A stretch of 26,963 bases of DNA from a virus. Location: the IMG/VR virus record IMGVR_UViG_3300049043_000186, positions 1-26,963 of that record. The stretch is one strand, 5' to 3'. Shown here one piece after another: positions 13,915 through 26,963 of this stretch. Below the pieces are notes generated by a model. That model did not search any database. It was not told the origin of the DNA and saw only the letters and a list, made by a program, of their open reading frames with translations. Position numbers and translations under genes: made by a program. The stretch's first letter is position 1; each line of letters starts with the position of its first letter.

Positions 13915-14063
13915 AGCCAGGTTTATATGCAAACATTCATGCAAAGCGTAAACGCATAGAAGCAGGTAGTGGAGAGAGGATGAGAGCCCCAGGAAGTAAA
14001 GGAGCTCCCACAGCAAAAGCGTTTAAACAATCTCTAAAGACAGCTAGAAAAACTAAACGTTAA
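13911..14063 (+). CDS. 50-aa basic phage protein
   Basis: MKPGLYANIHAKRKRIEAGS from ATG 13911, continuing GERMRAPGSKGAPTAKAFKQ and SLKTARKTKR to TAA 14061-14063; unbroken, 50 residues, very Lys/Arg-rich. The 'MKPGLYANIHAKRKRI..GSGE.MR.PG.KGAPTAKAF' pattern recurs as the last small gene beside DUF6321-type proteins in aquatic phages. It contains one copy of the GTTTAAACA motif (14021-14029, encoding FK). Its stop shares TTAA with the stop of the opposing gene. Confidence 0.72.
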   Translation: MKPGLYANIHAKRKRIEAGSGERMRAPGSKGAPTAKAFKQSLKTARKTKR

Positions 14064-14801
14064 GGAGCAGGGACTAACTGTCCTTCAAAAGTATATGTCC
14101 CAATATGAGCAAGACGAGCCCATGGTGCTCCCCATACCTTTATGCCATCTTTCCTTGCAATATGACAAAAATGATAATCTTCAGAAAGCAATCTATTTGT
14201 TTCCGGTTTGATTGAAGTCGCAAAGTATTCCACAATTGGAGCATGAGCCTTTATCGATCCTCCTAGATCAGTCACATCATTATTATATGTAGGGCATTTA
14301 TCTTTTAATTGCTCAAACACTTCACGTTTGATAAGCATAAAGCCTGTGCCACCATTCCATATCTCTACTGGCTCATTGATAGGCACAACCTTCTCTCCAG
14401 CAGAACCTACTAGATTGACTACAAAAGAACCTGTGTAATATTTTAAGTCCTCTGTCTTGACACCATTCTGAATAGACTTGACTACACTAGGAAAGTTAAT
14501 TTCTTTCTTAGGATAAAGACCACAAATAATTTCTTTATCTGCTTCAATCATCTTCACAATATCAAGTGCATTAAATCGTATGTCACTATCAATAAACATC
14601 ATGTGTGTAGCATCAGAGTTTAAGAAGCCATGCGCTAATGCGTTCCTTGCTCGTGTAATCAATGATTCATTAAACATAAAACTAAAGATAGAACCTATGT
14701 TGTTTTGATTCGAATACTCTTTGCAGTGTGAGCATGGATTGTGTGTAGTAGCCATAACATTGACCACCATACATTGGTGTTGCAACAAATACTTTTGCCA
14801 T
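14060..14801 (-). CDS. Phage glycosyltransferase (family-2-like)
   Basis: Starts at ATG 14801 behind AAGGGGATTTAT: MAKVFVATPMYGGQCYGYYT, frame break near 14700, then MFNESLITRARNALAHGFLN, HMMFIDSDIRFNALDIVKM, KEIICGLYPKKEINF, EIWNGGTGFMLIKREVFEQL and LLSEDYHFCHIARKDGIKVW, ending FEGQLVPAP. FIDSDIRF is the DxD metal/nucleotide-sugar site of a GT-A fold; SEDYHFC is the acidic acceptor-side motif. About 245 residues. Such phage enzymes may glycosylate virion proteins, DNA or host surface sugars; here it is the last gene of the recombination operon. Confidence 0.82.
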
Positions 14802-14863
14802 ATAAATCCCCTTAAATAAAATTAGTGAGGATACCTGAAACGTCTTCTCGTAACGTCTTAACT

Positions 14864-14880
14864 AACCACAGGGCGTGGTT
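14864..14880 (-). other. Short hairpin after rusA
   Basis: AACCAC at 14864-14869 pairs with GTGGTT at 14875-14880 around a five-base loop, three bases past the RusA stop. No T-run follows on the minus strand, so it is at best a weak terminator or mRNA-end stabiliser. Confidence 0.35.
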
Positions 14881-14882
14881 TC

Positions 14883-15249
14883 TCATTCAGGCTTGAGGGG
14901 TTTAAATCGATCTACTTTTACTATGACCCCACCACCTGATACAATCTCTTTGCGTTCTATGGCCAAACGATAAACTTGTTTGTCATCATTATACAGTCCA
15001 GCATCTTGCAGTGCATCTAAAATAGATTTACAACAATTATCTATATCCATAAGTCTTTTGTTTCTAGGATACAAATCAATATGAACTTCAAGTAAATCAT
15101 CACCAAAAGATTTAGCACGGCTTTGAACTAAAGAAATCCATACAGCCTGTTTAAACTCTTTGCCTCTCTTGGATATAAACCTTCTATGTCCTGATGCATA
15201 TCCAATAGTTATTTACTGATGGCGGGTAAGGTAGATCAAGCACAACCAT
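14883..15249 (-). CDS. rusA: RusA-type Holliday junction resolvase
   Basis: Starts MVVLDLPYPPSVNNYW at ATG 15249; one indel near 15200, then GHRRFISKRGKEFKQAVWIS, AKSFGDDLLEVHIDLYPRN, RLMDIDNCCKSILDALQDAG, LYNDDKQVYRLAIERKEIVS and a C-terminus VDRFKPLKPE. The PPSVN opening, DxDNxxKxxxDAL and the following DDKQV acidic pair are the RusA signature; these Asp residues bind the catalytic Mg2+. About 122 residues, the usual length. The enzyme cuts four-way junctions made during recombination or replication. ATG overlaps the upstream stop (TAATG). One GTTTAAACA copy encodes FKQ. Confidence 0.87.
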
Positions 15250-15523
15250 TAAAATGGAACGTCATCATCATTGTGTGAATTGACTTCTCTTGGATATGAT
15301 TGCTGCACTTGTCGAGGATTATCAAATCGATAAGTATCCTCAGCCAATGTGATAAGCTCACCATGAGAAGTAGAACGTGTCCACCCACCAAGTTGAATAG
15401 TATCTCCTGCCTTGTAATCTCTTTTAATGACAAGCTTCCCTGTAAAGTGTGGAGACTTATCAGATTTCTTTTTTGTGTTTGTAGCAAACTACCTGTGCCG
15501 GGCTTGTGTATAAACTCTGCCAT
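15249..15523 (-). CDS. SSB-like protein with acidic DDDVPF tail
   Basis: ATG 15523 two bases after the recT stop. MAEFIHKPGTGSLL, frame break near 15475, then KSDKSPHFTGKLVIKRDYKA, GDTIQLGGWTRSTSHGELIT, LAEDTYRFDNPRQVQQSYPR and a C-terminus NSHNDDDVPF at TAA. About 91 residues. The last residues copy the Asp-rich, Pro-Phe-ending tip by which bacterial SSB recruits repair proteins. The body is too short for a full OB fold like E. coli SSB; small phage OB-like proteins with this tail exist. The RecT-SSB-RusA order supports a recombination role. Family not certain. Confidence 0.68.
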
Positions 15524-15525
15524 GA

Positions 15526-16348
15526 CTATTCACCTTTCCTAATTAATGTTGTTATTTTTGTAATTTCTACTTGCTCTACTGCAGATAGCTTGTGGATTAA
15601 ATCGATGTTAGCATCTCTTAGATCATCAAGCTTGTGACCCTTATCTTCAGTAGAGTATTTAGTGCTTGTCCAAATCTTTCTATATAAATCTGTGTAAGCC
15701 ATAATCCATTCCTTATTCGTTGCATACTGAGCATAAGGTGTTTCACTTCCAGGAATGAAAATAGGAATAGAAAGATCATTGAAAGGTTTGTCGTCTTTCA
15801 TATCACTAAAGTCACCAGCATTTTGTTTCTCTAATGCCTTGACCGTAGGTGTGACATCGACTTCTTTTGGTGTGCTATCAAAATCTTGTATCTCCTCTGG
15901 AGTATATGTGCCTACTACACAGCCTGGAAATACAGTTCTAATACCCTCACTAATTACCCTAGCCCTTAACATTGCACGAGGATACTTAGCCCAATTATCC
16001 TTGCCAGCTAGACCAATACGCTTGGCTTGTTCGAGTGTCCATGTCAATTCAATCGAACCGCCATTAGGATGGGAAAACACACCAGTGACTTTCTCATCTG
16101 TGTATGATGTCCAATCCACTTTACCCCCAGCGCTTTGAAATCTAGCCAGCATTGCATCAGCCTTGAGAGCTGGTCTGCCTTGGATAATATGGTAGTCCCG
16201 TGCAGCCATGGCAGGATGCAGCCCCTCAGCTTGCGCGATTGCCATGAGTGCCAGGACTTGTTCGGGTGTTTGCATACCGAACAGCTTTGATTTGGCTATG
16301 GCATCAGCCATGCCTTCCATTTCTTCAAAGCGGAATAATGTTGCTCAT
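15526..16348 (-). CDS. recT: RecT-family single-strand annealing protein
   Basis: ATG 16348 in an ATGA overlap reads MSNIIPL, then after one indel EEMEGMADAIAKSKLFGMQT and an unbroken 264-residue frame. Key stretches: EQVLALMAIAQAEGLHPAMA, RDYHIIQGRPALKADAMLAR, IELTWTLEQAKRIGLAGKDN, WAKYPRAMLRARVISEGIRT and GTYTPEEIQDF. This matches the RecT/RedB-like phage family in which 'YPR.MLRARV.SEG.R' is strongly conserved. It pairs single strands for strand annealing and works with the exonuclease encoded upstream (16757-17661). C-terminal 80 residues are variable. Shine-Dalgarno AGGGGAG lies 8 bases upstream. Confidence 0.88.
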
Positions 16349-16517
16349 CTTTTAACTCCCCTATGGTTAGATATTTTTTTTATGTTGCTCCAAGTTTGCG
16401 TGTTGATGTAAGGTTGCATATTGCGATCCTTAATCTCCTGCTTTTGTAGTATCAATCTAATTGCATACGCACTGAGGTTGGATAAAGTTGTCTTGCTCTT
16501 TCTACAAATTCTTTCAT
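16345..16517 (-). CDS. Small basic protein between HTH and recT
   Basis: MKEFVERARQLYPTSV from ATG 16517, one indel near 16470, then AIRLILQKQEIKDRNMQPYI and NTQTWSNIKKISNHRGVKR to TGA 16345-16347, which overlaps the recT start. About 55 residues, basic and helical. Tight spacing on both sides supports a real gene. Function unknown. Confidence 0.5.
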
Positions 16518-16518
16518 A

Positions 16519-16736
16519 TTAAGTCGCTGCCTTTCTTAAAGAATATTCAGCAATTCGTTTGGCTCCCCCCCTACCAGAAATTTTTACGATTTTGCAATCG
16601 ATTCATTTCCAGCTTGTGCCAAATCATAAATCCTTGCAGCCAACCTAAAACAACCATAAAGCTTTAATGCTTCTATTGCTGTGATTGTTTTATGTTGCTT
16701 TAAGTGTGACAAAACTTCTCTTGCTTGTGAATCCAT
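16519..16736 (-). CDS. Winged-helix/HTH regulator (HTH_39-like)
   Basis: MDSQAREVLSHLKQHKTITA from ATG 16736 behind TTTTAGGGAAAAAT. Continues IEALKLYGCFRLAARIYDLA, QAGN, one indel near 16590, IDCKIVKISGRGGAKRIAEY and SLRKAAT. About 72 residues. The 'VL.HLK.HK.IT..EAL...G..RLAARI.DL...G..I' pattern is the small winged helix-turn-helix domain common beside phage RecT/exonuclease genes. A candidate DNA-binding partner for the repeated GTTTAAACA motif, but nothing in the sequence links the two directly. Confidence 0.75.
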
Positions 16737-16756
16737 ATTTTTCCCTAAAAGTTAGA

Positions 16757-17661
16757 TTATTTGACTAAAAACCTCCTACTACCCGGCATTTCTACTACAA
16801 ACTCCTCATACACTCCTGGCATAGACTGTTTAAACAGATTCGCTATTAAAACGCTTGCTAGATTTAGCACTACGCCATGTCACAAGTGTTTCACCAGTAA
16901 TACTAAGAATATCAGAGTAATCTTGCATAGAGGCTCGTAATGCCACCTCAATTTGCTCTGCTTTTTCCTCATATTGCTTAATGACACTCTTGATCTCTTT
17001 TAATTGTGCAATGGCAGTCTCAACCGCTTGTGTTGCTATCATGGATTGACCATTATCTTTAGGATAGATCAATTTAAGTAGCTTCTAACGATTGTGGTTC
17101 TGGAAGTGTGTCAGCTTGGACATGACCCCAATACACAGCCATTTCTTTGATTAAATTTTCCTTTTCCTCGTCTGTAAATGTGAAATCAAACGTCTGAAAT
17201 TCTTGACCACCAAATAAGACAGCCAAAACGACACGATCAACTCGATGAACGGTTGCTTCGTGTAAAATTTGAGCATAATCAGCAGGAGGAATACGATTAG
17301 TATCGGCATCAAACTTATTCCTCGTATTGATATTGTAGTTTTTTGCTTCAACCAGCACTCTGCCATCAGCAGATATAAAATCGAAATGGGAACGTAGCCA
17401 ATTATGATCTGGGTGTGTGAGAGGATAGTCTGCATCTTTTAACTCCATTTTTAGTTTATCTTGTGCTAACCTACCAATAATGGGTTGCATAACATGACCC
17501 ATCTGAACAGCCTCTACTTGAGACAAATCAGGGGGCTCTATTTTGCCTTGTTTTTGCATCACAACCTCAACAGCTTTCCCATTCATGACCTGACGGGTAT
17601 CCGATGCCCACCATGCACTATTTCTGACCTCTGGTAAAAAATCGTCTCGATCGTTTGCCAT
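16757..17661 (-). CDS. YqaJ-type (lambda-exonuclease-like) viral recombinase nuclease
   Basis: MANDRDDFLPEVRNSAWWAS from ATG 17661 behind CTGGGAGAACTTCA. The PD-(D/E)XK nuclease core spans residues 1-160: the helix with VQMGHVMQPIIGRLA, then HFDFISADGRVLVEAKNYN, giving metal-binding Asp and the ExK pair. A single extra T near 17077 breaks the frame; the rest (LIYPKDNGQSMIATQAVETA, a coiled coil, TGETLVTWRSAKSSKRFN) and, after a second break near 16850, LFKQSMPGVYEEFVVEMPG and SRRFLVK belong to the same protein, as in full-length YqaJ relatives ending PGSRRFL. About 300 residues. It resects DNA ends to give 3' strands for RecT. GTTTAAACA occurs inside (16828-16835). Confidence 0.85.
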
Positions 17662-17816
17662 TGAAGTTCTCCCAGATTAAATCTGCTAGTGTTTGTTGTT
17701 TTTTCTCTAGTTCTGCTATGCGATCAGATAGCTTATTGATTTTGACATCAAGTTTCATATCATCGACTTTCAAAGCCTCGATCTGAACCCTTAAGTTCAT
17801 TCATGATTATTTCCAT
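17618..17816 (-). CDS. Small coiled-coil protein upstream of the exonuclease
   Basis: Start ATG 17816 (MEIIMNEL) behind GGGGATAATT, or ATG 17804; one indel near 17793, then IEALKVDDMKLDVKINKLSD and RIAELEKKQQTLADLIWENF. About 60 residues, almost entirely a heptad coiled coil. As read it runs to 17618, overlapping the exonuclease start by 44 bases; a missed base near 17665 may shorten it. Function unknown. Confidence 0.5.
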
Positions 17817-17846
17817 AATTATCCCCAGTTAGTATGTTTAAACAGC

Positions 17847-17989
17847 TTAAAGGCAGTTAGTCACATTACCGCAAGTTGTGCAGTTAATAATGCGACCATC
17901 TACGATATAAGTTTGTGTGTAGCACGCATAAGCTCTTAATGCGACTAATGCGAAGATATAAAACCTGTTGCGATTGCTATTTTTTTCAT
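17847..17989 (-). CDS. Small exported Cys-rich protein
   Basis: MKKIAIATGFI from ATG 17989 behind TAGAGGGGTCAATC, one missing base near 17957, then FALVALRAYACYTQTYIVDG and RIINCTTCGNVTNCL. A Lys-rich start, hydrophobic helix and ACYT look like a signal peptide with cleavage before or at the Cys; the mature part has four Cys in CTTCG/NC spacing. About 48 residues. Similar tiny secreted phage proteins are known without function. Its end leads into a GTTTAAACAT copy at 17836. Confidence 0.55.
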
Positions 17990-18006
17990 GATTGACCCCT
18001 CTAAAG

Positions 18007-18253
18007 TTAAAATGGATTGTTTTCTAAAGTTTGATCCCATTGATAGTCTTTTACCTTACTTTCAATTGGCTCAGAAATATTGTCCAGCAGTGCCACAATT
18101 TCCATTATATTGAACTGAAATACAAGATTGATGATGTCTTGTTCTCCTGTGACCAAATCAATAATGGGTGATTCGTTTACATACTGATGAGTAATCGATG
18201 TCTTGTTCGAAGTGTATGCAGTCTGCACATATTCTTATTTTACGACTATACAT
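18007..18253 (-). CDS. Small zinc-binding-type Cys protein
   Basis: MYSRKIRICADCIHFEQDID from ATG 18253 behind TCTAACTAGGGGACATT. Then YSSVCKR, frame shift near 18165, IIDLVTGEQ, frame shift, SCISVQYNGNCGTAGQYF, frame shift, ESKVKDYQWDQTLENNPF. About 80 residues. 'C.DC.HF....VCKR...DLVTGE....C.....NG.CG..G.YF' matches small phage proteins with a CxxC...C...C...C cluster, thought to bind zinc. Three indels assumed. Confidence 0.62.
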
Positions 18254-18286
18254 AATGTCCCCTAGTTAGAAAGTTAGTGTGTTATC

Positions 18287-18315
18287 AAATTAAATGATTA
18301 TATTTAGTTTGTCAA
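18287..18315 (-). promoter_or_regulatory. Possible sigma70-type promoter
   Basis: On the minus strand TTGACA (18310-18315), 17 bases, then TAATTT (18287-18292), about 35 bases before the ATG at 18253. The -35 is perfect, the -10 poor. The region lies directly after the HNH gene, so a fresh promoter would be useful there. Confidence 0.4.
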
Positions 18316-18322
18316 TCTTTTT

Positions 18323-18815
18323 TTATAAATATGCAAATTCACCATGATATTTTTTTCTAGCTGAAAATATTCGCACAGCACGCCTCAAAGAAATCTGTGC
18401 GGTAGCCAAGTTGATATTCCTTCCTTGTTTACATAAATTTTAGCCACCCATTTTTTATATTTTTTTGACCAATGAACACCTTTCACTCCTGAAGTGTTAT
18501 CACTTCTCATTTGTGAGTTGTAGTTGTTTTCTGATTCGAGTGCATGGTCTTAAATTTTCAATCCTGTTATCACATCTAACGCTATTAATACTGATCTATG
18601 GTCTCTGGAAAATATCCATGCACATATAACCAAGCCAATCTATGAGCCATGTAAGATTTCCTATTGATACATATTTTTACATAACCATGAGCATGGATTA
18701 ATCCAGCTTTTGTCCCACCTTTTACTCGGTTAAATTTATTGTCCTGCTTCCACAAAAATATCCCTGTTTTTTCGTTATAACTTAGTGCATTTTTTAATTC
18801 ATTTTGGGTTATCAT
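18323..18815 (-). CDS. HNH endonuclease with AP2 DNA-binding domain
   Basis: MITQNELKNALSYNEKTGIF from ATG 18815 behind AAAAGGAGATAGCT. Continues LWKQDNKFNRVKGGTKAGLI, HGYVKICINRKSYMAHRLAW, LYVHGYFPETIDQ, then after frame breaks RCDNRIENLR, NTSGVKGVHWSKKYKKWVAK and HGEFAYL. The AHRLAW...IDxIN....DNRxxNLR block is an HNH_3 nuclease with its catalytic His; NTSGVKGV.W.K..KKW.A is the AP2 DNA-binding domain. About 160 residues, at least five indels. A selfish homing-type gene placed directly beside the candidate origin. Confidence 0.8.
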
Positions 18816-18839
18816 AGCTATCTCCTTTTAAATCTATGC

Positions 18840-19040
18840 TAACACACATTGTGGATTAAATGTGGTATAGGTAAGTTGTGGATAACTTTTCATCGCTTAT
18901 AATATTTAAGTATTTTAATCTATGAATATAAACTTAGTTTATATTCATTATTAAATAGGTTTTAATACTACTATCTTATATATTACCTATATAATATTAT
19001 AATAGAGTGATTAAAATTTAAGCAGTCTTAAAAATCACTC
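18840..19040. other. Candidate replication origin / control region
   Basis: Gene-free, very AT-rich stretch between the HNH-AP2 gene and the small gene at 19048. It holds TGTGGATAA at 18877-18885, the exact complement of the DnaA box TTATCCACA, a one-mismatch box TGTGGATTA at 18850-18858, the 27-bp palindrome at 18922-18948, and about 70 bases of nearly pure A/T (18950-19020). Together these resemble a replication origin; function is inferred. Confidence 0.5.
18922..18948. repeat. Perfect 27-bp inverted repeat
   Basis: ATGAATATAAAC (18922-18933), three-base centre TTA, then GTTTATATTCAT (18937-18948): twelve paired bases with no mismatch. Not followed by a T-run, so not a terminator. Suits a dimeric repressor or an initiator protein site. 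Confidence 0.9.
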
Positions 19041-19047
19041 TCACAAA

Positions 19048-19234
19048 TCATCTACAAAACACTTTTACCCATAAAGACAAGCAAAGGTATATCTGGAAAC
19101 TAATCGTGCGTTTTTGGTGCCTTGCCGTTTGAAATTGGGCTATATAATTATCTCTATGTTGATGACTTTTGTGTAAATCATCAAATAAGGATAATTGCAC
19201 AAAAAATAAGCAATTCTCGGTCTAAATGTTGCAT
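19048..19234 (-). CDS. Possible small phage protein
   Basis: ATG 19234 (MQHLDRELLIF) behind TTAGGGGACAACT. After one indel near 19200, QLSLFDDLHKSHQHRDNYIA, QFQTARHQKRTISFQIYLCL and SLWVKVFCR, ending TGA 19048-19050. About 60 residues, basic. The Shine-Dalgarno is good and overlaps the stop of the gene upstream, but the protein is unlike anything I recognise and its last part may be read through by error. Confidence 0.4.
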
Positions 19235-19243
19235 AGTTGTCCC

Positions 19244-19628
19244 CTAATAAAAAATAAGATCATTTGGATAAGCTTTTAACTGACTAATTTTTTTATAGCC
19301 CCACGGATTTTTTATGTCCGCACTATGAAAATGTGTAGCCCCTCTGCGAATAATCTGACTTAATATTAAAGTTGATTATTTTTTGAGCAATGACCATGTT
19401 GTGTAAAATCGTTTTACTATCTGGATATGAATATTCCCCTCTGTTTAAACGGGTGATATATTCACTTGACCACTTTTTGTTAATGACTTCACATAATCGA
19501 TTGGGTTTAAAATCTGCCCTACGATAATAAACCATGCCCACAGCTATTTTGGTTTCCATTGGGGTTAAATCTCCCCCAGCTTCACCACTTATGACTAAAC
19601 CTAAACAATAAGCCCCTAATAAAGACAT
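19244..19628 (-). CDS. SleB/CwlJ-like cell-wall hydrolase
   Basis: MSLLGAYCLGLVISGEAGGD from ATG 19628 behind TAAGGAGGTCTT. Continues LTPMETKIAVGMVYYRRADF, NRLCEVINKKWSSEYITRLN, TILHNMVIAQKIIN, frame break near 19365, RRGATHFHSADIKNPWGYKK and LKAYPNDLIFY. The opening 'GEAGG....E..AV..V.YYR', a mid-domain 'VI....W', and the closing 'GATHFH......WG' are those of the Hydrolase_2 (SleB) family of lytic transglycosylase-like enzymes; the Glu of SGEAGG is the likely catalytic acid. About 128 residues. Its place in the early operon, far from the holin and M15 endolysin, is unusual. Confidence 0.75.
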
Positions 19629-19647
19629 AAGACCTCCTTACAAGTAA

Positions 19648-19852
19648 TTAATCAGGATATTCGTAAATCAATGGCTCCAAATCATTATACTCTACCCCTA
19701 CAATCGTAATATTAGGGCTTATTATGCTCACCCTGCTTTAAATCTAGGGTAAAATTAGCATTTCTCGCGTAATATTCCGCCTCTGTCTCATCTTTAGCCT
19801 CTACATCAATCCATACTTGGTAATGTAATGCCACACTATATAATTTCGTCAT
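19648..19852 (-). CDS. Small phage protein, DpnD/PcfM-like sheet
   Basis: ATG 19852 directly abuts a GTTTAAAC copy, after AAGGAGGCT. MTKLYSVALHYQVWIDVEAK, DETEAEYYARNANFTLDLKQ, one frame break near 19715, ISPNITIVGVEYNDLEPLIY, EYPD. About 68 residues. The pattern 'strand, V.A.DE.EA...A, strand' is a small alpha/beta fold seen in many tiny phage proteins and resembles the gene product at 20986-21162. Function unknown. Confidence 0.6.
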
Positions 19853-19854
19853 GT

Positions 19855-20089
19855 TTAAACAGCCTCCTTGTAATCACCTTGAGAAAAACATCGATCACAC
19901 AATGCTTGATACTTCTCATTAAAGTCATAATCACAATCCCAATTAAGTTCGTTCCATGTATGTTGAATAAGCCCGCACTTATCACAGCAATTCAAATCTA
20001 ATAGGCTCATGCGATTCATGACAATATTGTCCTTGTTTTTAAATCTGTTTATGTTTTTACCATGCAAGTTATGTATAGGTATATTTCAT
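19855..20089 (-). CDS. Small zinc-ribbon-like protein
   Basis: ATG 20089 behind AAGGAGGCTTAAAA gives MKYTYT, one extra T, LHGKNINRFKNKDN, then MNRMSLLDLNCCDKCGLIQH, TWNELNWDCDYDFNEKYQAL and CDRCFSQGDYKEAV. CDKC and CDRC about 33 residues apart form a plausible zinc ribbon. About 77 residues. The last codons and stop (GTT TAA) lie inside AAGGAGGCTGTTTAAACATG, which is at once the next gene's Shine-Dalgarno, spacer and start. Confidence 0.65.
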
Positions 20090-20091
20090 TT

Positions 20092-20347
20092 TTAAGCCTC
20101 CTTATAAAATGCGTTCTCTGTCATAGCTTCAAAAATCATGGGTTCACCTACTTTAAAACTTTCTGTGTCATCATATTCTGACATTGTGTCGTCAATATTA
20201 TGAAATACACACCAACTATCAGACTCACTCCAATATTGGATACGCTTCTGATGATCTGCAACCCCCGTTCAATCTCATAAAAAATTCATTATATGGACTA
20301 TCATCACAATGGTTCTTTAACTCACTAATACTTGTAATTGCTATCAT
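20092..20347 (-). CDS. Small acidic phage protein (frameshifted)
   Basis: ATG 20347 directly after GTTTAAAC and a GGGGGG Shine-Dalgarno. MIAITSISELKNHCDDSPYN, EFFMRLNGG, one extra base near 20263, QKRIQYWSESDSWCVFHNID, DTMSEYDDTESFKVGEPMIF and EAMTENAFYKEA. About 84 residues, acidic. Ends KEA with AAGGAGG overlapping the last codons, as its neighbours do. No family recognised. Confidence 0.55.
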
Positions 20348-20361
20348 GTTTAAACACCCCC

Positions 20362-20691
20362 CTAGTTAAAATAATATTTAGCGTTTTTGTCTATGCTCTC
20401 TTGGATAACCTGATACTTTTCTATCATGTCCTCCTCTGCATACCAGCAAAGAGATAGTTTTGCTAAATCGTCATTGAATGATAGCTGTTCTCTTATGTAA
20501 TCGATCAAGGCGCTTTCACTTGTTAGCGCCTGATCTGTAATGCCACAATCGAACCACTCCTGTTCGTGCCCGTTATAAGTCGCTATAACGTCAAGCCTCA
20601 CGTTGTCGATAAAATGAGTTTCATTTAATAACTTTCTATTGAACTCACAATCTGCTAATCCATGCTTTTCCATTTCCTGTAATAAGCTCAT
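20362..20691 (-). CDS. Hypothetical phage protein, 109 aa
   Basis: Unbroken from ATG 20691, placed directly behind AAAGGAGGTTGTTTAAAC. MSLLQEMEKHGLADCEFNRK, LLNETHFIDNVRLDVIATYN, GHEQEWFDCGITDQALTSES, ALIDYIREQLSFNDDLAKLS, LCWYAEEDMIEKYQVIQESI. Acidic, mixed alpha/beta, no metal motif. Stop TAG is inside TTAACTAGGGGGG, the leader of the next gene. Function unknown. Confidence 0.62.
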   Translation of the reverse strand: MSLLQEMEKHGLADCEFNRKLLNETHFIDNVRLDVIATYNGHEQEWFDCGITDQALTSESALIDYIREQLSFNDDLAKLSLCWYAEEDMIEKYQVIQESIDKNAKYYFN

Positions 20692-20693
20692 GT

Positions 20694-20983
20694 TTAAACA
20701 ACCTCCTTTGATTTGTTTAAATAATTTAAATATCTTTGATACCTTACTGAAACTTGATAAAGTTTATGTCCTAAGAGTTTCCCATTTTAAAACAGGCTCC
20801 CATAGTCCAAGCGTTATTGTCGTAAGCTTGATCTGCTATTAAGTAATGATCTCTTAATTTTTTTACATCAAAATTTAATAATTTTTGTTTATGTAAATTT
20901 CTATCGTGATCAAACCAATTTTTACGATATTTGAAATAATAAGTTTTGCCAAAATGTTCATAGGATAATTTTTTATATTCCAT
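20694..20983 (-). CDS. Hypothetical basic phage protein (frameshifted)
   Basis: ATG 20983 directly after GAGGAGGTTGTTTAAAC. MEYKKLSYEHFGKTYYFKYR, KNWFDHDRNLHKQKLLNFDV, KKLRDHYLIADQAYDNNAWT, MGACFKMG. As read it stops at 20771, but one base near 20785 restores LLGHKLYQVSVRYQRYLNYL and NKSKEVV, ending exactly in the next GTTTAAAC junction (TAA 20694-20696). The end KEVV matches its neighbours' KEAV and EEVV, which supports the repaired length of about 95 residues. Function unknown. Confidence 0.58.
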
Positions 20984-20985
20984 GT

Positions 20986-21162
20986 TTAAACAACCTCCTC
21001 TACAAAATCAATTTGAAAATGATCGGTGTCATCACTTTCCAGTCCAGCTTGCACCATTTCCATGAATAATGATTTGGCTTGAGCCTCGTCTTTAGCTTGA
21101 ACCCATTGTGAATAGATATGCGTTTCACTTGCTAACACGCGAAAAGTTTTAGTTTTTACCAT
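20986..21162 (-). CDS. Small phage protein, DpnD/PcfM-like sheet
   Basis: ATG 21162 behind GGAGGGAAATTAATC: MVKTKTFRVLASETHIYSQW, VQAKDEAQAKSLFMEMVQAG and LESDDTDHFQIDFVEEVV; 58 residues. As read it is fused in frame to the gene upstream, but the strong Shine-Dalgarno and the 'strand, V.AKDE..A' fold shared with the gene at 19648 argue for a separate protein. Stop TAA lies within GTTTAAAC at 20984-20991. Confidence 0.6.
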   Translation of the reverse strand: MVKTKTFRVLASETHIYSQWVQAKDEAQAKSLFMEMVQAGLESDDTDHFQIDFVEEVV

Positions 21163-21164
21163 GA

Positions 21165-21285
21165 TTAATTTCCCTCCAATTCCGTCTAATTTTTCCATGA
21201 ACTCGCGTAAGATTTCCTCTTTATCGTAAATCTTATTGCCGTCTTCGTCTTGATACCAATATAAGTCTTGAACAATCTGCTCCAT
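21165..21285 (-). CDS. Very small acidic phage protein
   Basis: MEQIVQDLYWYQDEDGNKIY from ATG 21285 behind TAGGGGGGCTTAATC. Continues DKEEILREFMEKLD; removing one G near 21180 gives ELEGN and a stop TAA (21165-21167) just before the next ATG. About 39 residues. As read it runs on into the next gene. Function unknown. Confidence 0.5.
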
Positions 21286-21287
21286 GA

Positions 21288-21480
21288 TTAAGCCCCCCTA
21301 GCCTGTTTAAACAGCGTTGAAATAATGTCCTCAAACTTATACTCAATCCCGCGTCTGTTGAGCTCGTTCTTCGATCTGGGATAAGTAAATCTCATCACGC
21401 ACCCCGCGCGCCATAAGCGTTGAATAGGTGTCATAAGCGTCAAGTAATTGATCGTTTGTATAGCTGGTAAAGTTAAGCAT
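21288..21480 (-). CDS. Small helical phage protein
   Basis: ATG 21480 behind AGAGGGGGTTCAAA: MLNFTSYTNDQLLDAYDTYS, TLMARGVRDEIYLSQIEERA, QQTRD, one indel near 21340, IEYKFEDIISTLFKQARGA to TAA 21288-21290. About 64 residues, helical. LFKQ is encoded by a GTTTAAACA copy (21305-21312). Function unknown. Confidence 0.58.
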
Positions 21481-21559
21481 TTTGAACCCCCTCTGTTTTG
21501 CATGAGAGTAGAAAGCGTAAAGATTGGATACGCGCCTTGTTTAGCTGTATTTTTTCCAT
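21473..21559 (-). CDS. 28-residue peptide gene
   Basis: ATG 21559 behind TCTAACTAAAAAAGGGGTTTATC: MEKIQLNKARIQSLRFLLSC and KTEGVQNA, stop TAA 21473-21475, overlapping the next ATG by a few bases. Basic amphipathic helix. The strong leader and the overlap are the evidence; it may instead be a leader peptide for the gene at 21480. Confidence 0.45.
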   Translation of the reverse strand: MEKIQLNKARIQSLRFLLSCKTEGVQNA

Positions 21560-21604
21560 GATAAACCCCTTTTTTAGTTAGAATATGGCTTAATTTAAGC
21601 CCAT

Positions 21605-21627
21605 AAGCGCGCTGTTTAAACGCGCTT
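21605..21627. other. Hairpin with GTTTAAAC loop (no T-run)
   Basis: AAGCGCG (21605-21611), loop CTGTTTAAA, CGCGCTT (21621-21627). Same loop and stem length as the terminator at 22556 but different arms. No T-run on either strand, so it is a weak terminator or an RNA structure at the end of the preceding gene. Confidence 0.7.
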
Positions 21628-21638
21628 AAAGATTAAAC

Positions 21639-22080
21639 TTATGCAACCTCTACGAACTCTTTCGCTCTTGCTTTTTGGTTTCCTCGCAATATTTAAAGAA
21701 GTCAACCCATGAACCCTCAAATATTTGGCGCTTTTCTTTGCCATAAGCGTTCTGCATAAGCTTTGATAGTGTCTTTGTAAATGTGATACTCATACTCCTG
21801 CCCGCAATCCATGTTTAATTTTGGCTGATAGATATAAACATTTCCCGCTTGCCCATGCTTTAAATGCCCGATTAATTGAGCACTTAAACAACCCATGCCA
21901 TTGGCTATTTTTAATTCTGGATTATCTGCGCCTAAACCATTGACTATTTTAAATTTGGATAGATAGCTGGCTATCTCTAAACCATGCCCAGATATATAGC
22001 CGTCATATTGACGATAAATGCAAGTTAAAACATCATTGTTATGATGATCGAAAACATAAGTTAATGATTCTAGTTCCCAT
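21639..22080 (-). CDS. Conserved phage MGTR-family protein
   Basis: ATG 22080 behind AACTAGGGAGGTTTTATC. MGTRIIN, one indel near 22060, VFDHHNNDVLTCIYRQYDGY, ISGHGLEIASYLSKFKIVNG, NGMGCLSAQLIGHLKHGQAG, MDCGQEYEYHIYKDTIK, indel near 21745, YGKEKRQIFEGSWVDFFKYC and FVEVA. 'MGTR...V.D.....LC.IYRQ.DGY.SGHG.E.A.FL' is a widespread phage/bacterial family of unknown function with a conserved YEYHI strand. About 147 residues after repair. Followed by the hairpin at 21605. Confidence 0.72.
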
Positions 22081-22096
22081 GATAAAACCTCCCTAG

Positions 22097-22180
22097 TTAG
22101 AATGATAAAATTAGAATTAAAAAGCAATAAAAAGAAAATAAAGACAAAATAAAATAAAAGATTAATTTGTATATATTCAT
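22097..22180 (-). CDS. 27-residue single-TM micropeptide
   Basis: MNIYKLIFYFILSLFSFYCF then LILILSF, stop TAA 22097-22099. The frame is unbroken, starts two bases after the previous stop and ends in the leader of the next gene (TTCTAACTAGGGAGG). Almost entirely hydrophobic. Too short for family assignment; could be a membrane-acting regulator or lysis/exclusion peptide, by inference only. Confidence 0.5.
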   Translation of the reverse strand: MNIYKLIFYFILSLFSFYCFLILILSF

Positions 22181-22182
22181 GA

Positions 22183-22440
22183 TTAAATTCTCTCATTAAA
22201 TAATTTATGGTTATTTTCTCTAATAATAGCTTGCCAGTCTTTTTGCTTTATAACTCTAAAATTTTTGTTATAAATGCTAGGCGCTGATTTTTTTAATTGT
22301 GAATAATTGCTGATCTCAATAAATTCATTAAGAATTTTGTTTGCTTCATTAAGTGTTTGAGCGCCTGATAAAGTGTAATAATTCTTAATTGATAGCGCGT
22401 CATTACTACTTGAAACTTGGATAAGATATTTTGATTTCAT
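22183..22440 (-). CDS. Hypothetical phage protein, 85 aa
   Basis: Unbroken from ATG 22440 behind TTCTAACTAAAAAGGGCTTAATT: MKSKYLIQVSSSNDALSIKN, YYTLSGAQTLNEANKILNEF, IEISNYSQLKKSAPSIYNKN and FRVIKQKDWQAIIRENNHKL. Begins with a beta strand then 'EANKIL' helix, like the small alpha/beta proteins further along. First gene after the promoter at 22501. Function unknown. Confidence 0.65.
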   Translation of the reverse strand: MKSKYLIQVSSSNDALSIKNYYTLSGAQTLNEANKILNEFIEISNYSQLKKSAPSIYNKNFRVIKQKDWQAIIRENNHKLFNERI

Positions 22441-22500
22441 AATTAAGCCCTTTTTAGTTAGAAATATTATAATATTAAAATATTAATAATGATTAATTAG

Positions 22501-22526
22501 ATTATATTAATTTTAATAATTGTCAA
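22501..22526 (-). promoter_or_regulatory. Probable promoter for the small-gene run
   Basis: Minus strand TTGACA (22521-22526) and TATAAT (22501-22506), both perfect, with a 14-base spacer rich in A/T homopolymers that may have lost bases in the read. Lies between the terminator at 22556 and the gene at 22440. Confidence 0.55.
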
Positions 22527-22544
22527 TAGTTATTATTAATTATT

Positions 22545-22578
22545 TATAAAAGAAAAAGGGCGCTGTTTAAACGCCCTT
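22545..22578 (-). terminator. Rho-independent terminator after SprT gene
   Basis: On the minus strand AAGGGCG, loop TTTAAACAG, CGCCCTT, then TTTCTTTTATA: a seven-pair GC-rich stem (22556-22562 with 22572-22578) and a T-run. It starts eight bases after the SprT stop. The loop contains the GTTTAAACA motif. Confidence 0.8.
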
Positions 22579-22585
22579 ATATTTG

Positions 22586-23178
22586 TTATTGCATTTGAAT
22601 ATTGCACGCTGGGCATATTGGCGCGCCTATTTCATATAACCATTTGCGCGTTATTCTGATGTTATAACCGCATTCACACTCACACTTAATAAGGCGGGTT
22701 GTTTGCTTTTTACCGCTGAATTAGCGATTGAATTTAAAGCAGCATGAGGATATTCACCGATAACTTGCTATCCAGCTATCGAGCTTTTATTTTAAATCAT
22801 CGCTTGCTATTGTCGCTGTCATTTTACCAGTCAATCCTAACGCTTAAGAGCGCAACGTTCTAAACACCTTATTATGCCCATTTTCATTGCCAACGATAGC
22901 GTGCACTATGTTCATGGATTAGAATATCCGCCACCCTTGCGCTATCCTTCTATCGTTGGTGATGATCATAATTTCATGTATATGCACCCTTGCTGGCACT
23001 GCATGAGAAATGCATACCCAATAGCTCTTGCATTTTTTGATCCGCGCCCTGAAGTTAGAGAGCATGAGAATTTCAATGACGATCTTAATTCTTTTGATAT
23101 TGTCATAACCAGCATTATTGAAAATGATCAAGTAAGAATTGATCGGTGAATTTATTCGAGCCAAGTTTCTCTATTCAT
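22586..23178 (-). CDS. SprT-like zinc metalloprotease-type protein
   Basis: ATG 23178 behind AAAAAGGGTATTAATT. After several indels: MNRETWLE, FTDQFLLDHF, SCSLTSGRGSKNARAIGYAF, SSPTIED, SARVADILIHE-x-VHAIVGN, ENGHNKVFRTL, LGLTGKMTATIASDDLK, YPHAALNSIANSAVKSKQ, TTRLIKCECECGYNIRITRK and a C-terminal PICPACNIQMQ. HExVH plus a downstream His (ENGH) is the zinc protease site; two CxC/CxxC pairs form the C-terminal zinc ribbon. The 'GL.GKMTAT...L...L' and 'YPH..L' phrases are typical of phage SprT-like proteins. About 195 residues, at least eight indels. A plus-strand frame over 22874-23149 is a shadow. Confidence 0.78.
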
Positions 23179-23574
23179 AATTAATACCCTTTTTAATAGT
23201 TAGAATTTAATCATATTTAATATGATTAATAAGAGTATATGATTATGTTTAAACAATGTCAATATAATATTTAAATATTTTAATATTTATATACTATTAT
23301 ATATATATATATATATAAATAGTAATTAATAATAGTATTTAATATTAATAATATTATAAGGGTTTCGTAATAATGGGAGGTTATGTAAAATGCATAACCT
23401 CCTCCCCCCTGTGATAATTAAAATTTATCATGGGTAATACAATGTTTAATGTTATTTATATATTTATATTATTAAAATCATTATGGTAATTATGGGTATT
23501 TAATAGATTTGAATACTAGAATATTTATATAGACTGGCAACTGAAAGGGTCATGCACCCCCTTGTGTGCGAGAC
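23179..23574. other. AT-rich gene-free region upstream of SprT
   Basis: Contains the SprT promoter (23234-23262), a TA-dinucleotide run near 23298-23317, long A/T-only stretches, and an inverted repeat GGAGGTTATG (23376-23385) / CATAACCTCC (23393-23402) with a seven-base loop, followed by a C-run on the plus strand. I see no gene in it; the phage insert is cut off here by the adapter. Confidence 0.6.
23234..23262 (-). promoter_or_regulatory. Sigma70-type promoter with GTTTAAAC in its spacer
   Basis: Minus strand TTGACA (23257-23262), exactly 17 bases, TATACT (23234-23239). GTTTAAAC occupies 23247-23254 in the spacer. Start of transcription expected near 23227, about 50 bases before the SprT ATG. 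A repressor bound to the palindrome would block RNA polymerase. Confidence 0.72.
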
Positions 23575-23621
23575 AGCAATACGTAATGTTTTTGAATGTA
23601 CTCCGTTCAGTTAGTATTGCT
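23575..23621. other. Internal nanopore adapter pair (chimeric junction)
   Basis: AGCAATACGTAA (23575-23586) is the reverse complement end of the ligation adapter; TGTACTCCGTTCAGTTAG (from 23597) through TATTGCT (23621) is the forward adapter with a few errors. Tail-to-head adapters mark where two separate molecules were read as one. Confidence 0.95.
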
Positions 23622-23811
23622 GACCGATCAGTTCGCCGAACATCTGGCTGATGCAGGGCGGCGATGAAGTCGCCTTCAGAGACCGAGGGTGGTCGCCGGG
23701 TGGCGTAATAGCCATCCGTGGGGTCGCGCAGGCACAGGTGCATGTAGTCGGCCACGCTGATCGGGCCGCTGCGTGCGGATCAGGTCCGCAATCCGCGCAC
23801 GCGAGGCTCAC
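23622..23811 (-). CDS. MidA/NDUFAF7-type SAM methyltransferase (3' truncated)
   Basis: GTG start at 23811 within a GTGA overlap with the lgt stop. Joined frames give MSLA, ADYMHLCLRDPTDGYY, PSVSEGDF and DISQMFGELIGQ. 'ADYM..CL.DP..GYY......G.GDF.TAPDISQMFGELIG' is the N-terminus of the SAM-dependent methyltransferase family of MidA/NDUFAF7, which acts in complex I assembly in mitochondria. The gene sits after lgt in many alphaproteobacteria. It is cut by the adapter after about 60 residues. Confidence 0.75.
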
Positions 23812-24646
23812 CGGGCGCCGGGGTCCAGGCGAGCGGCAAGGCCCCGGCGGATGAGCCAGGCGCCGAACGCCACCATGGGCAGGCTGAGGATCATTCCCAT
23901 GGTCAGTTCAAGGGGGAAGGCCGGCATGTAGAAGTCAGGCTCCCGGACGGTCTCGACCAGGATCCGGCACAGGCCACAGCCCTGTGAACGAAGAAGACCC
24001 GCCGTCACCCCGGGCCGGGCCAGCAGGCCCGCCCTGTGCGTCGCCCACCGAAGGACGAGGAAGAGGATCACGCCCTCCAGCAGAGCCTGATAGATCTCGG
24101 CTGGGATGCCGCAGGCTCAGGGCCCGCTGCAGGAAAGACCATGGCCCAGGGCAGGTCGGTCGGGCGGGCCCCGCGGACTCGCCGTTGATGAAGTTGGCGA
24201 TCCGCCCGAGGAAGAGGCCGGATGGGGACCACGGCGCACACGAGGTCTCCGAGGGAAAAGAGGGTCCAGGCCCGGCAGGCGGACGAAGAGGCCCACGGCC
24301 ACGAGGACGCCCAGACAGCCCCCATGGAAGCTCATGCCCCCGTTCCACACCCGCAGGATCTCCAGGGGATCGGACAGCACCACGCCGGGGGTGTAGAAGA
24401 GGACATGGCCAAGCCGTCCTCCCACGATGATCCCCAGGGTTATCCACAGGACCAGGTCCCTCTTGAGGGCCGCCTTGTCCACAGGCGGTCGCCCTGCCGC
24501 CCCACAGGGCGGGGCGGTTGATCATCGACCCTGCATAGCGCCAGGCGGCGAGGATGCCGACGATGTAGGCCAGGGCGTACCACCGGATGGCCAGGGGCCC
24601 GATCTGGATCAGGACGGGGTCCATCTGCGGATCAGGGCAGGGCCAA
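23808..24646 (-). CDS. lgt: Prolipoprotein diacylglyceryl transferase
   Basis: Start placed at TTG 24646 ([19 protein letters not shown], one indel assumed) or ATG 24624. Continues [96 protein letters not shown], then after several breaks [20 protein letters not shown] and RLDPGAR. GGRLGH, the MSFHGG loop and [10 protein letters not shown] are the Lgt signature motifs, including the catalytic His/Arg positions. An inner-membrane enzyme with seven TM helices that attaches diacylglycerol to lipobox Cys. About 275 residues. Divergent from ubiK. Confidence 0.9.
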
Positions 24647-24732
24647 GGCGCGTCTCCGTGTGAGGCTACGGACCCCCGGTCTAAGCCGAGAACCCCTTTC
24701 GCTTTCACCCCCGATGGGACCGTATTCAACCC

Positions 24733-25029
24733 ATGCAGACACAGAACCCCTTCCTCGATGAAATGGCCCGGCTGACCAACGCCGCCATGGGCCTGGCCCA
24801 GAGCGCCGGCGATGAGGCCAAGGCCGCCTTCCGCGCCCAGGCCGACCGCTGGGTGGCGGAGCTGGATCTGGTCCGGGCGCGACGCAGCTTGAGGCCCTGC
24901 GGCCGAGGTCGCCGCTCTCCGTGACCGAGGTCGCGGCCGCTGCGCCGCCCCTCCGGCGCGCGCGCGCCGCAAGCCCTGCGGCGAAATGGTGCGCAGGGTC
25001 CGGGGCCGAATAAGGCCAAGAAAGGGTGA
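24733..25029 (+). CDS. ubiK: UbiK/BMFP-family accessory factor
   Basis: MQTQNPFLDEMARLTNAAMG from ATG 24733; LAQSAGDEAKAAFRAQADRW and VAELDLV follow, then after a frame break near 24880 LEALRAEVAALRD and, after another, a Lys-rich end NKAKKG at TGA 25027-25029. 'NPFLD..A.L...A......A..E....FRAQ.DR...ELDLV.R..FEA.......LR' is the BMFP/UbiK family: a short trimeric coiled coil that assists ubiquinone synthesis enzymes. About 98 residues. Divergent from lgt, a familiar alphaproteobacterial arrangement. Confidence 0.8.
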
Positions 25030-25117
25030 ATCCCGCTGTACGGGAATCTCCGATCCCGGATTAGCCTCCCCTCAGGAGATCGACGATCCGAGCTCAGCGA
25101 GGAGGCTTTCAGGCCCC

Positions 25118-25630
25118 ATGGATTCTCCCCTGTCCGCGGACGAGGCCCTGCTCAGCCAGGACCCCCTGGACGTGGTCGAACATGTCCTTGAGGCCGAGAA
25201 CCTGCAGTTCGACAGGACGGAGCGCGGGGCGCTGGCCTCCGCCCTCTTCGGGGGTGGCGCGACTTCGGCCTCTGCTTCACCTGGCGGCCGGATCCTGCGA
25301 CTGCCTCCGGGTCGCTCTCCCTGGAGCATGCGCGCCCCCCAGGCCCTGCGCGGGCAGGTGTTCGAACTCCTCGCCGGGGTCAACGCCCGGGCGTCGCTGG
25401 GCCTGTTCGAGACGCGCGACGACGGCGAGATCCTCTTTCGCTTCGGTACGCCCCTCCTGCCGGGGCGAGTATCCCGGCCTCGCGCAGACCGCCGGGATGA
25501 TCGAGCGTCGCCATGGAGGCCGCCGAGCGCTTCTTCCCGGCCTTCGACTTTCGCATCCGCTGCAGGCGCGGCAGGCCCCCGGCGGAAGCGCTCGGCCGCC
25601 TGCATGTTCGAGACGGTCGGCGTGGCCTGA
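25118..25630 (+). CDS. YbjN domain-containing protein
   Basis: MDSPLSADEALLSQDPLDVV from ATG 25118 behind GAGGAGGC. EHVLEAENLQFDRTERG, one break near 25260, WRDFGLCFTWRPDPAT, LRGQVFELLAGVNARASLGL, FETRDDGEILFRFGTPLLPG, AERFFPAFDF and ACMFETVGVA. 'DPLD.VE.VL.AENL.FDRTE' and a central 'L..LAGVNA....G.FE...D.G.I.FR' match the alphaproteobacterial YbjN-like (type III chaperone-fold) family of unknown role, commonly found just upstream of proC. About 170 residues. Three GANTC sites lie in its leader and start. Confidence 0.78.
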   Translation: MDSPLSADEALLSQDPLDVVEHVLEAENLQFDRTERGALASALFGGGATSASASPGGRILRLPPGRSPWSMRAPQALRGQVFELLAGVNARASLGLFETRDDGEILFRFGTPLLPGRVSRPRADRRDDRASPWRPPSASSRPSTFASAAGAAGPRRKRSAACMFETVGVA

Positions 25631-25719
25631 GGCCGTTCGCCGCCCGTCGTTTTGTTCGCCCGGGATGGTTCCCTCCAACGCCCTGAGGCTCTGAAGGGGG
25701 CTGGGTCCTGGAGGCGGCG

Positions 25720-26531
25720 ATGAACCCTGTTCTCATGCTCTGGCGCCGGGCGTCTCGGCGGCGTCCTCATCGAAGGTTGGAGCCGCTTCGGCGGCCCCTC
25801 CGGAGCAGACCTGATCATCCTGGACCCTGCGCCCTCCGAGGCGGCCCTCGCGGCCGGACGGGCGGGCGACCCTCCGTCCCCCGGCTCCGGCGGACCTGCA
25901 GCGCGCCCAGACCGTATTCCTCGCCGCCAGGTGAAGCCCCAGGTGTGGCGGGAGGCCGCGGCGGCGATCGCCGGGAGCCTGGATTCCAAAGCCGTCATCA
26001 TCTCGGTCGCGGCGGGCGTCCGCGCCGCCGACATCGGACGGGAGGCCTTCGGAGGTCGCCGGGTCGCCAGCGGTGATGCCGACCACGGCGGTTGCGGTAG
26101 GCCGGGGCGGCGAGCCTTTTTCTCCGGATCCCAGGGTGCGCCGTCGCGCCCGGCGCCCTCTTCGGCCCTGCTCGGCCACCGTCGTGGATTCGCCGGGTGA
26201 AGAGCTGCTGCACGCCGCCACCGGGGTCTCAGCAACGTCGCCGTATCGACGCCTTCGTCGAGGCCCTTGAGGCGGCGGGCGTCGCCGCCGGCCTGACGGC
26301 CGCCGCCGCCCGGGACCTTCCCGGCCACCACGAGTCGCGCTGCAGCCCTGCTGGACGCCACGGAGAGGAACCAGCCGAGCTCAGGCGTCAGGTCACATCG
26401 CCCGAGGGACGACCGAGGCTGCGCTGGAGGTCCTGGATGGGCGAGGGCGGGCTCGGGCCGATTCCTGGAAGCCGGCGGTCGCCGCCGCGGCCCGTCGTTC
26501 GCGGGAACTGGGAGGCCAGTCCGCCTGGTGA
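25720..26531 (+). CDS. proC: Pyrroline-5-carboxylate reductase
   Basis: ATG 25720. Joined frames: MNPVLML, GAGRLGGVLIEGWSRFGGPS, GADLIILDPAPSEAALAAGR, KPQVWREAAAAIAGSLDSKA, VIISVAAGVRAADIG, DEELLHAATGVS-like sequence, FVEALEAAGVAAGLTA, EEPAELRRQVTSP, EVL-MGEGGLGP and RRSRELGG. The Rossmann GxGRLG, KPQ, SVAAG and the C-terminal GVAAGL...LRxxVTSPGGTT region are those of ProC, the last step of proline synthesis (P5C to proline with NAD(P)H). About 268 residues; many indels. Confidence 0.88.
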
Positions 26532-26938
26532 CTCCAGTTCCGGCCTCTGGCAGATGACCGCGACGCAACCTTCGACCTCGAGCACCCCTCCGCCCATAAG
26601 GCTGACGTTTCGAGTCGTAGGTCCTCCCAGTGTTCGGGTCATAAATCTTGCCGCCGCCCCAGCGTCCTTCCCGGCCCCGTGGGCTCTGAAGTCCCGGAGG
26701 ATCTGGAGGCCCAGGATCGGGCGGACTCCCGCAGGGCGGCGGACTTCGGATTAGCCTCGTCCCGCGCCTCGGAGGCCGGCTTTCCGTCCTCGCCCCGGCC
26801 CGCGATGACTGACTTCGCAGCTGCTTGTCGCCGCAGGGGGCGACGCGGACCTTCCCCTGTTCGCCTGGCGCGTACCAGACGCCGACTGGAGAAGCGCTTG
26901 CAATGGGCGCGCGCGGCGGAGAGCACCAGAGCGAGGCT
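26510..26938 (-). CDS. DUF2147 domain protein (5' truncated)
   Basis: Reads from the insert edge ALVLS-like hydrophobic sequence, PVGVWYAPGEQGKVRVAPCG, then IAGRGEDGKPASEARD, NPNPALR-like, GLQILRDF, GGGKIYDPNTGRTYDSK and LMGGGVLEVEGCVAVICQR. 'G.W......GKV.V..CG....' through 'G.IYDP..GRTYDSK....G..LEV.GC' is the DUF2147 pattern, a small exported beta-barrel-like protein. The hydrophobic start suggests a signal peptide cut by the adapter. C-terminal limit uncertain because of indels. Confidence 0.72.
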
Positions 26939-26963
26939 AGCAATACGTAACTGAACGGTAAAA

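Follow-up and report, generated by a model that had tools for sequence, protein, structure and literature searches.

A sigma-70-type promoter with an operator-like palindrome in its spacer precedes an SprT-like gene in the early region of the viral DNA analysed here, and the same palindromic octamer, GTTTAAAC, accompanies SprT-like proteins in unrelated phages. It is suggested that the SprT-like protein reads the palindrome as a switch: probably, it binds the operator in the spacer of its own early promoter, which would thereby be autoregulated, and further copies of the octamer serve as dispersed operators.

The window, meaning the whole stretch of DNA that was analysed, is an entire IMG/VR record of 26,963 bases, in which reading frames are interrupted every few hundred bases, resembling uncorrected long reads. 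Structural-type genes occupy the plus strand to about 14 kb, and the minus strand carries the early genes (RusA, RecT-like, HTH_39, YqaJ/RecE-like, HNH and SprT-like). The G+C content rises from 0.24 to 0.60-0.75 at about 23.5 kb, and 23500-26963 consists of high-GC bacterial DNA with pieces of Lgt (PF01790); therefore, the right end of the window (~23.5-27.0 kb) is probably a chimeric join. Frameshifted pieces of a beta-ketoacyl synthase (PF00109, PF02801) were also detected at 4792-5547, amid plus-strand phage genes; a gene of the fatty-acid or polyketide synthase type, if the phage does carry one, would be unusual.

The promoter was located on the minus strand, where 23262-23234 reads TTGACA TTGTTTAAACATAATCA TATACT. 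The octamer (23247..23254) begins 2 nt behind the -35 hexamer TTGACA (23257..23262), and a spacer of 17 bases, within the 16-18 nt of sigma-70 promoters, separates the latter from the -10 hexamer TATACT (23234..23239), 11 of the 12 hexamer positions matching the consensus. The original prediction of TTGACA-17-TATACT with the palindrome in its spacer, in which the strand was not given, was thus borne out. The number of TTGACA-N15-19-TATAMT matches expected in the shuffled window is 0.07. Among the 38 promoter-like matches found in 14000-23540, the SprT promoter was the best (11/12), although 42.7 +/- 6.9 matches are expected there by chance, so that the region holds no excess of them. The case for a promoter is carried by its conservation, which is strong evidence, the consensus score alone being weak evidence.

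In the relative L167, 31 identical bases surround the promoter inside an AT-rich leader of ~70-80% identity, and the same block is kept by L175, whose SprT protein shares 71% identity with the L167 one. Both of these SprT-bearing relatives retain the promoter letter for letter (TTGACATTGTTTAAACATAATCATATAAT), including the -35 hexamer and the palindrome, save for a -10 hexamer of TATAAT. The spacer motif, for which conservation in relatives had been proposed as a check, was kept wherever SprT follows and was missing in the SprT-less sisters L121, L131 and L133, which have another first gene, a site-free leader and ordinary SD-start junctions. An overlap of promoter and motif by chance in an AT-rich leader, as might be argued from the lack of an excess of promoter-like matches there, is refuted by the conservation in L167 and L175, and also faces the association data given below; its probability is next to nothing. 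The presence of an operator-like site within the putative SprT promoter is well supported by these comparisons, and it is plausible that SprT is the first regulated early gene, with a predicted transcript start at 23227.

A second iterated element, TTCTAACTA, was noticed on the minus strand just 5' of the SD sequences that precede several early genes, with five copies (23197-23205, 22455-22463, 22094-22102, 21575-21583 and 18263-18271) vs 0.40 expected. It is also found in the leaders of L131, L121 and L167, and thus in SprT-less relatives as well. The early region of L131, which has neither SprT nor the motif, contains an ORF that looks like a C5-type DNA methyltransferase by its sequence (L131:2001-3065).

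The SprT-like gene (phrog_6361 / PF10263 family) occupies 22586..23178 on the minus strand and has in this record several frameshifts of the read type; an intact orthologue of 189 aa is encoded by L167:1743-2312. The score of this orthologue against PF10263 was 29.4 bits, above the curated cut-off of 25.6, which the L224 and L216 proteins exceeded too; the phrog_6361 match had an E of 3.5e-35, and the HExxH zinc-protease motif is present in the L167 protein as HEIVH. The fold predicted for the SprT-like protein (pLDDT 90) has a core resembling that of zincins and, at the C-terminus, a ribbon of two strands. When this model was used in Foldseek, weak zincin matches alone were obtained (best abylysin 4jiu, E 0.08), and no DNA-binding fold of known type was matched; a sequence search of the PDB with the protein gave no informative match. 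The predicted structure would therefore contribute little to the mechanism. A 54-residue phage family, phrog_34373, matches just the C-terminal part of SprT-like proteins, which suggests that the QxTR/zinc-ribbon module may occur also by itself.

The octamer is present in the window in 13 copies vs 0.72 expected, all of them at 14021-23254, in the early half. Copies above chance in the early region together with a site at an early promoter are what would be looked for in dispersed operators. Besides the promoter copy, two were found in hairpin loops and four at SD-GTTTAAAC-ATG junctions, the others being intergenic or coding. One hairpin is the intrinsic terminator 3' of SprT (22556..22578, minus strand; AAGGGCG TTTAAACAG CGCCCTT followed by a T run), which is identical in L167, L175 and L135 and bears the octamer in its loop (22565-22572); the second hairpin (AAGCGCG/CGCGCTT) has it at 21614..21621. 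The junction copies, which double as the stop codon of the preceding gene, lie at 20984..20991 (GGAGGTT-GTTTAAAC-ATG, holding the TAA of the preceding gene), 20692..20699, 20348..20355 and 19853..19860, the last one 5' of the MTKLY gene, whose orthologue in the SprT-less L121 has GTTTAAAG. Other copies were located at the end of an early gene (21305..21312, as CTGTTTAAACAG), within coding sequence (19443..19450), in the intergenic region 5' of ORF 17618-17800 (17836..17843), on a stop codon (16828..16835, again CTGTTTAAACAG), near the RusA-like gene (15149..15156) and in a plus-strand gene (AKAFKQS; 14021..14028), where the copy may be incidental. All these positions were read on the minus strand.

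The four junction and two hairpin-loop copies could be taken to indicate a motif that acts on RNA. This is highly improbable, as the promoter-spacer copies are 5' of the transcript start, the motif is palindromic, copies within genes occur on both strands, and promoters carry the variant form GTTTACAC described below. A cassette-linker role of SD-GTTTAAAC-ATG in recombination had been considered, since the small genes between the junctions vary among relatives, and was rejected because it leaves the promoter and terminator copies and the SprT link unexplained. The alternative palindromes TATTAATA and TTTTAAAA, which the 75% and 69% relatives have at the homologous positions, were likewise discarded; they turned out to be AT tracts or scattered coding matches and not junction motifs.

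Viral contigs were scanned for AGGNKGTTTAAACATG, which yielded 119 stretches, 56 of them strongly enriched in GTTTAAAC (4-30 copies vs <1 expected). The enriched stretches represent at least ten unrelated phage groups with G+C contents of 0.30-0.59, in which the octamer is iterated about 10-40 times; the hosts of the motif-rich phages are actinobacteria, proteobacteria and a cyanobacterium. Nearly all groups prefer the flanks Y-GTTTAAAC-R. One-mismatch variants were mostly without enrichment, the exception being GTTTACAC in groups 0 and 2. In whole records, the sites cluster in non-structural regions in most genomes and show a 3-5 fold overrepresentation in non-coding sequence, yet the majority lie within genes. 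The many intragenic copies in other phages are a counterpoint to the operator reading, as ordinary operators need not be intragenic.

The HIP1 element of cyanobacteria (GCGATCGC) is a strict palindromic octamer that is highly iterated, also within genes. The phage octamer resembles it in being palindromic and iterated, with intragenic copies and mostly unenriched one-mismatch variants. In contrast to HIP1, it is tied to one protein family and its promoter and is concentrated in early regions; the whole-genome spread of HIP1 is absent from the window, where only the early region has copies, and is partly seen in some other phages.

The protein family in question was revealed when 1548 genes of motif-rich phages were compared all against all, the SprT-like family being the only one to span 9 of 12 unrelated groups; no shared methyltransferase or other common gene emerged as a candidate, SprT alone spanning most groups. 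With an SprT profile, 27/56 motif-rich contigs were positive vs 0/63 motif-poor ones (Fisher p 2e-11), most contigs being fragments of ~9 kb, for which absence is uninformative. A set defined through a primase-like protein comprised one branch of 53 motif-rich contigs and a sister branch of 27 motif-poor ones (27/27); the long records (42-57 kb) of the motif-rich branch all carry SprT (5/5), and SprT was absent from the long records tested of the motif-poor branch. Group 4 (L028 and kin), which had looked like a case of motif without SprT, was dropped as such because these five long records of that family carry the gene.

The search was also run in reverse, with contigs selected by their SprT protein and without use of the DNA motif, the query proteins coming from motif-rich phages; a closer alignment was used for this, as one of 20 rows was too divergent for a scan of the collection. 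Among the 76 new contigs, 68 were motif-rich (63 in GTTTAAAC and 5 in GTTTACAC) and 8 were neither, and GTTTAAAC was the top over-represented 8-mer in many of them. Named phages picked in this way included Venkman, Pan1 and R5C, with 34, 16 and 17 copies of GTTTAAAC, respectively. The variant GTTTACAC was present in 16-35 copies in KeAlii, Zeta1847, Maureen, Mabodamaca, Emotion and Marky, where the reversed-pattern control gave 0, and in 27 copies in Powerpuff; those with 16-35 copies, phages of Arthrobacter, Microbacterium and Streptomyces, have none or two copies of GTTTAAAC. The most over-represented 8-mer was GTTTACAC in KeAlii, Zeta1847, Maureen and Marky and GTTTAAAC in Venkman. GTTTAAAC is palindromic, and for GTTTACAC the orientations relative to transcription (same/opposite) were 15/8, 13/9 and 12/5, but 14/21 in Marky. 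The link between SprT and the octamer across unrelated phages is a correlation, and it appears in both search directions.

Not every record follows the correlation. No SprT was found in two motif-rich records that may be incomplete, L010 (37 sites in 30 kb) and L102 (18 sites in 32 kb); L121 (38 kb) has 7 sites without SprT. Conversely, the SprT-bearing phages Dismas, Armstrong and Eden (L224, L228 and L229, respectively), MW2 and Epa5 bear neither GTTTAAAC nor GTTTACAC; SprT phages of this kind may read another sequence or none. In Armstrong, 8-mers of the CTATTGTA type are enriched (6 vs 0.06), possibly as a different motif.

The repressor that the original prediction had in mind was the product of the HTH gene, which encodes a winged-HTH protein (HTH_39, PF14090) in the same early region (16519/16584..16736, minus strand). 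This candidate did not survive the comparison, as the gene does not track the motif: it is lacking in each of the 45 motif-rich records that lie outside the clade, and is present in the motif-poor relatives L138, L139, L164, L158 and L163. HTH_39 as the motif reader is largely refuted by this distribution, and that it acts as a repressor on GTTTAAAC is very unlikely.

The placement of the sites relative to SprT was then considered over all contigs. The motif stands at most 130 nt 5' of SprT in 42/106 cases vs 118/1286 for other ORFs of the same contigs, an excess with an odds ratio of 6.5 (p 3e-15) in which the contigs are partly non-independent. The role at the DNA level that had been proposed for the palindrome in the promoter is supported by this excess, as it is by the conservation in L167 and L175. 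The actinophage-like contigs L008, L018, L035 and L073 have TTGACANN-GTTTAAAC, arranged as in the window. Mano, Persinger, ECO1230-10 and Mica contain 4-7 sites per genome, one of them 15-19 bp 5' of the SprT start and behind a -10-like box. In Powerpuff, TTGCGC/T-N18-TAGACT is followed directly by GTTTACAC before the SprT gene 49, gene 50 and two farther genes, and KeAlii and Maureen share this type of repeated promoter.

SprT/Spartan proteins take part in DNA-protein crosslink repair (PMC5128726, PMC5127644). Along this line, the octamer might be a genome-maintenance signal of the HIP1, Chi or crosslink-repair entry type, with SprT acting in repair, recombination or replication and the promoter placement being secondary; the numerous copies in coding sequence, genome-wide in some phages, would fit such a role. 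It is nevertheless quite unlikely in view of the marked excess of sites at SprT's own promoter, the recurrent promoter architectures with a site behind the -10 and the concentration in the early region of most genomes.

Regulation by the SprT-like protein itself is the reading preferred here, and its most likely target would be the operator YGTTTAAACR. A protein bound just behind the -35 would exclude RNA polymerase and so shut down the SprT gene, an effect that we take, conditionally, to be repression; direct binding would be involved at the remaining early-region copies as well, at junctions and terminator loops, which the same protein could use as dispersed stoperator-like operators for the control of early genes. 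On this view, which is our inference, the SprT-like protein would be a regulator that binds DNA with sequence specificity and, in this phage, controls its own gene. The DNA would most likely be read by the C-terminal module, composed of YPH...KKQ[ST]TR and the zinc ribbon, since the DNA motif persists where the protease motif of the zincin domain has been lost: all 10 HExxH-less members of the family are in motif-rich contigs (10/10), and rows without QxTR are motif-free in 15/17. The protein tree offers three supported independent contrasts of QxTR vs motif, which does not suffice for a sign test, and two changes of HExxH; because independent contrasts are few, the QxTR and HExxH patterns are indications and not tests.

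Protease-repressor pairs such as ImmA with ImmR are known. SprT could by analogy be the protease partner of another, perhaps host, factor that reads the octamer, with a promoter controlled by this factor inducing SprT; the retention of HExxH by most family members and the operator-like sites at the SprT promoter would be compatible with it. Such an arrangement is unlikely, given that the motif-rich groups have no other protein family in common, that the hosts span actinobacteria, proteobacteria and a cyanobacterium, and that HExxH-less members keep the motif.

Compared with other SprT/Spartan metalloproteases (PF10263), the phage proteins share the zincin domain with HExxH and the zinc ribbon, and differ in the added conserved YPH...KKQ[ST]TR, in the dispensability of HExxH in one actinophage branch and in the octamer link, of which no description for this family was found in the open literature. 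Among dispersed phage sites, the stoperators of cluster A mycobacteriophages are 13-bp asymmetric sites of the L5 gp71 repressor (see also PMC3203893). They resemble the system proposed here in that one short motif, the presumed target of a phage regulator, is dispersed in many copies at promoters and gene boundaries of temperate phages. Unlike them, the octamer is an 8-bp palindrome (or GTTTACAC) with many coding copies and very diverse hosts, and its partner is a zinc protein of the SprT type and not an HTH repressor. The SAS of cluster K is a 13-bp asymmetric sequence, GGGATAGGAGCCC, beside start codons, and putative promoters overlap the ESAS, including one before the SprT gene Adephagia 75 (PMC3203893, PMC11373665). 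As in cluster K, a short motif stands between the SD and the start of early genes and is confined to the non-structural half; the window motif is, however, the palindromic GTTTAAAC, occurs also in promoters and terminator loops and does not belong to the SAS, and cluster K has an HTH repressor. Cluster K SprT was not among the SprT matches that gave the named phages.

Powerpuff, of cluster AZ, forms stable homoimmune lysogens and has no identifiable repressor, and an SprT-like gene is common to clusters AZ and EH (PMC8758107). The SprT-like protein is therefore put forward as a candidate repressor of these temperate actinophages. In its widest form, the proposal would make phrog_6361 proteins pan-phage, non-HTH master regulators derived from a protease, which read GTTTAAAC or GTTTACAC through a C-terminal QxTR-zinc-ribbon module and act as the immunity repressors of AZ/EH; this we hold only tentatively, at somewhat less than an even chance. 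In the open literature, subscription papers and preprints aside, no description was found of GTTTAAAC as a phage motif or of an SprT-like phage regulator, and the novelty of the octamer-SprT pair is provisional to that extent. Where phage proteins are annotated as 'SprT-like protease' or 'transcription elongation protein SprT', the same open literature gives the protein no function and leaves the octamer unremarked; since the pair recurs in phages whose hosts are actinobacteria, proteobacteria and a cyanobacterium, it points to an overlooked regulatory system.

A dense array of the octamer was observed in the contig L046, in which 340 non-coding bases (L046:9392-9740) hold six copies of GTTTAAAC, five of them spaced 45-54 bp, so that these copies may be helically phased.
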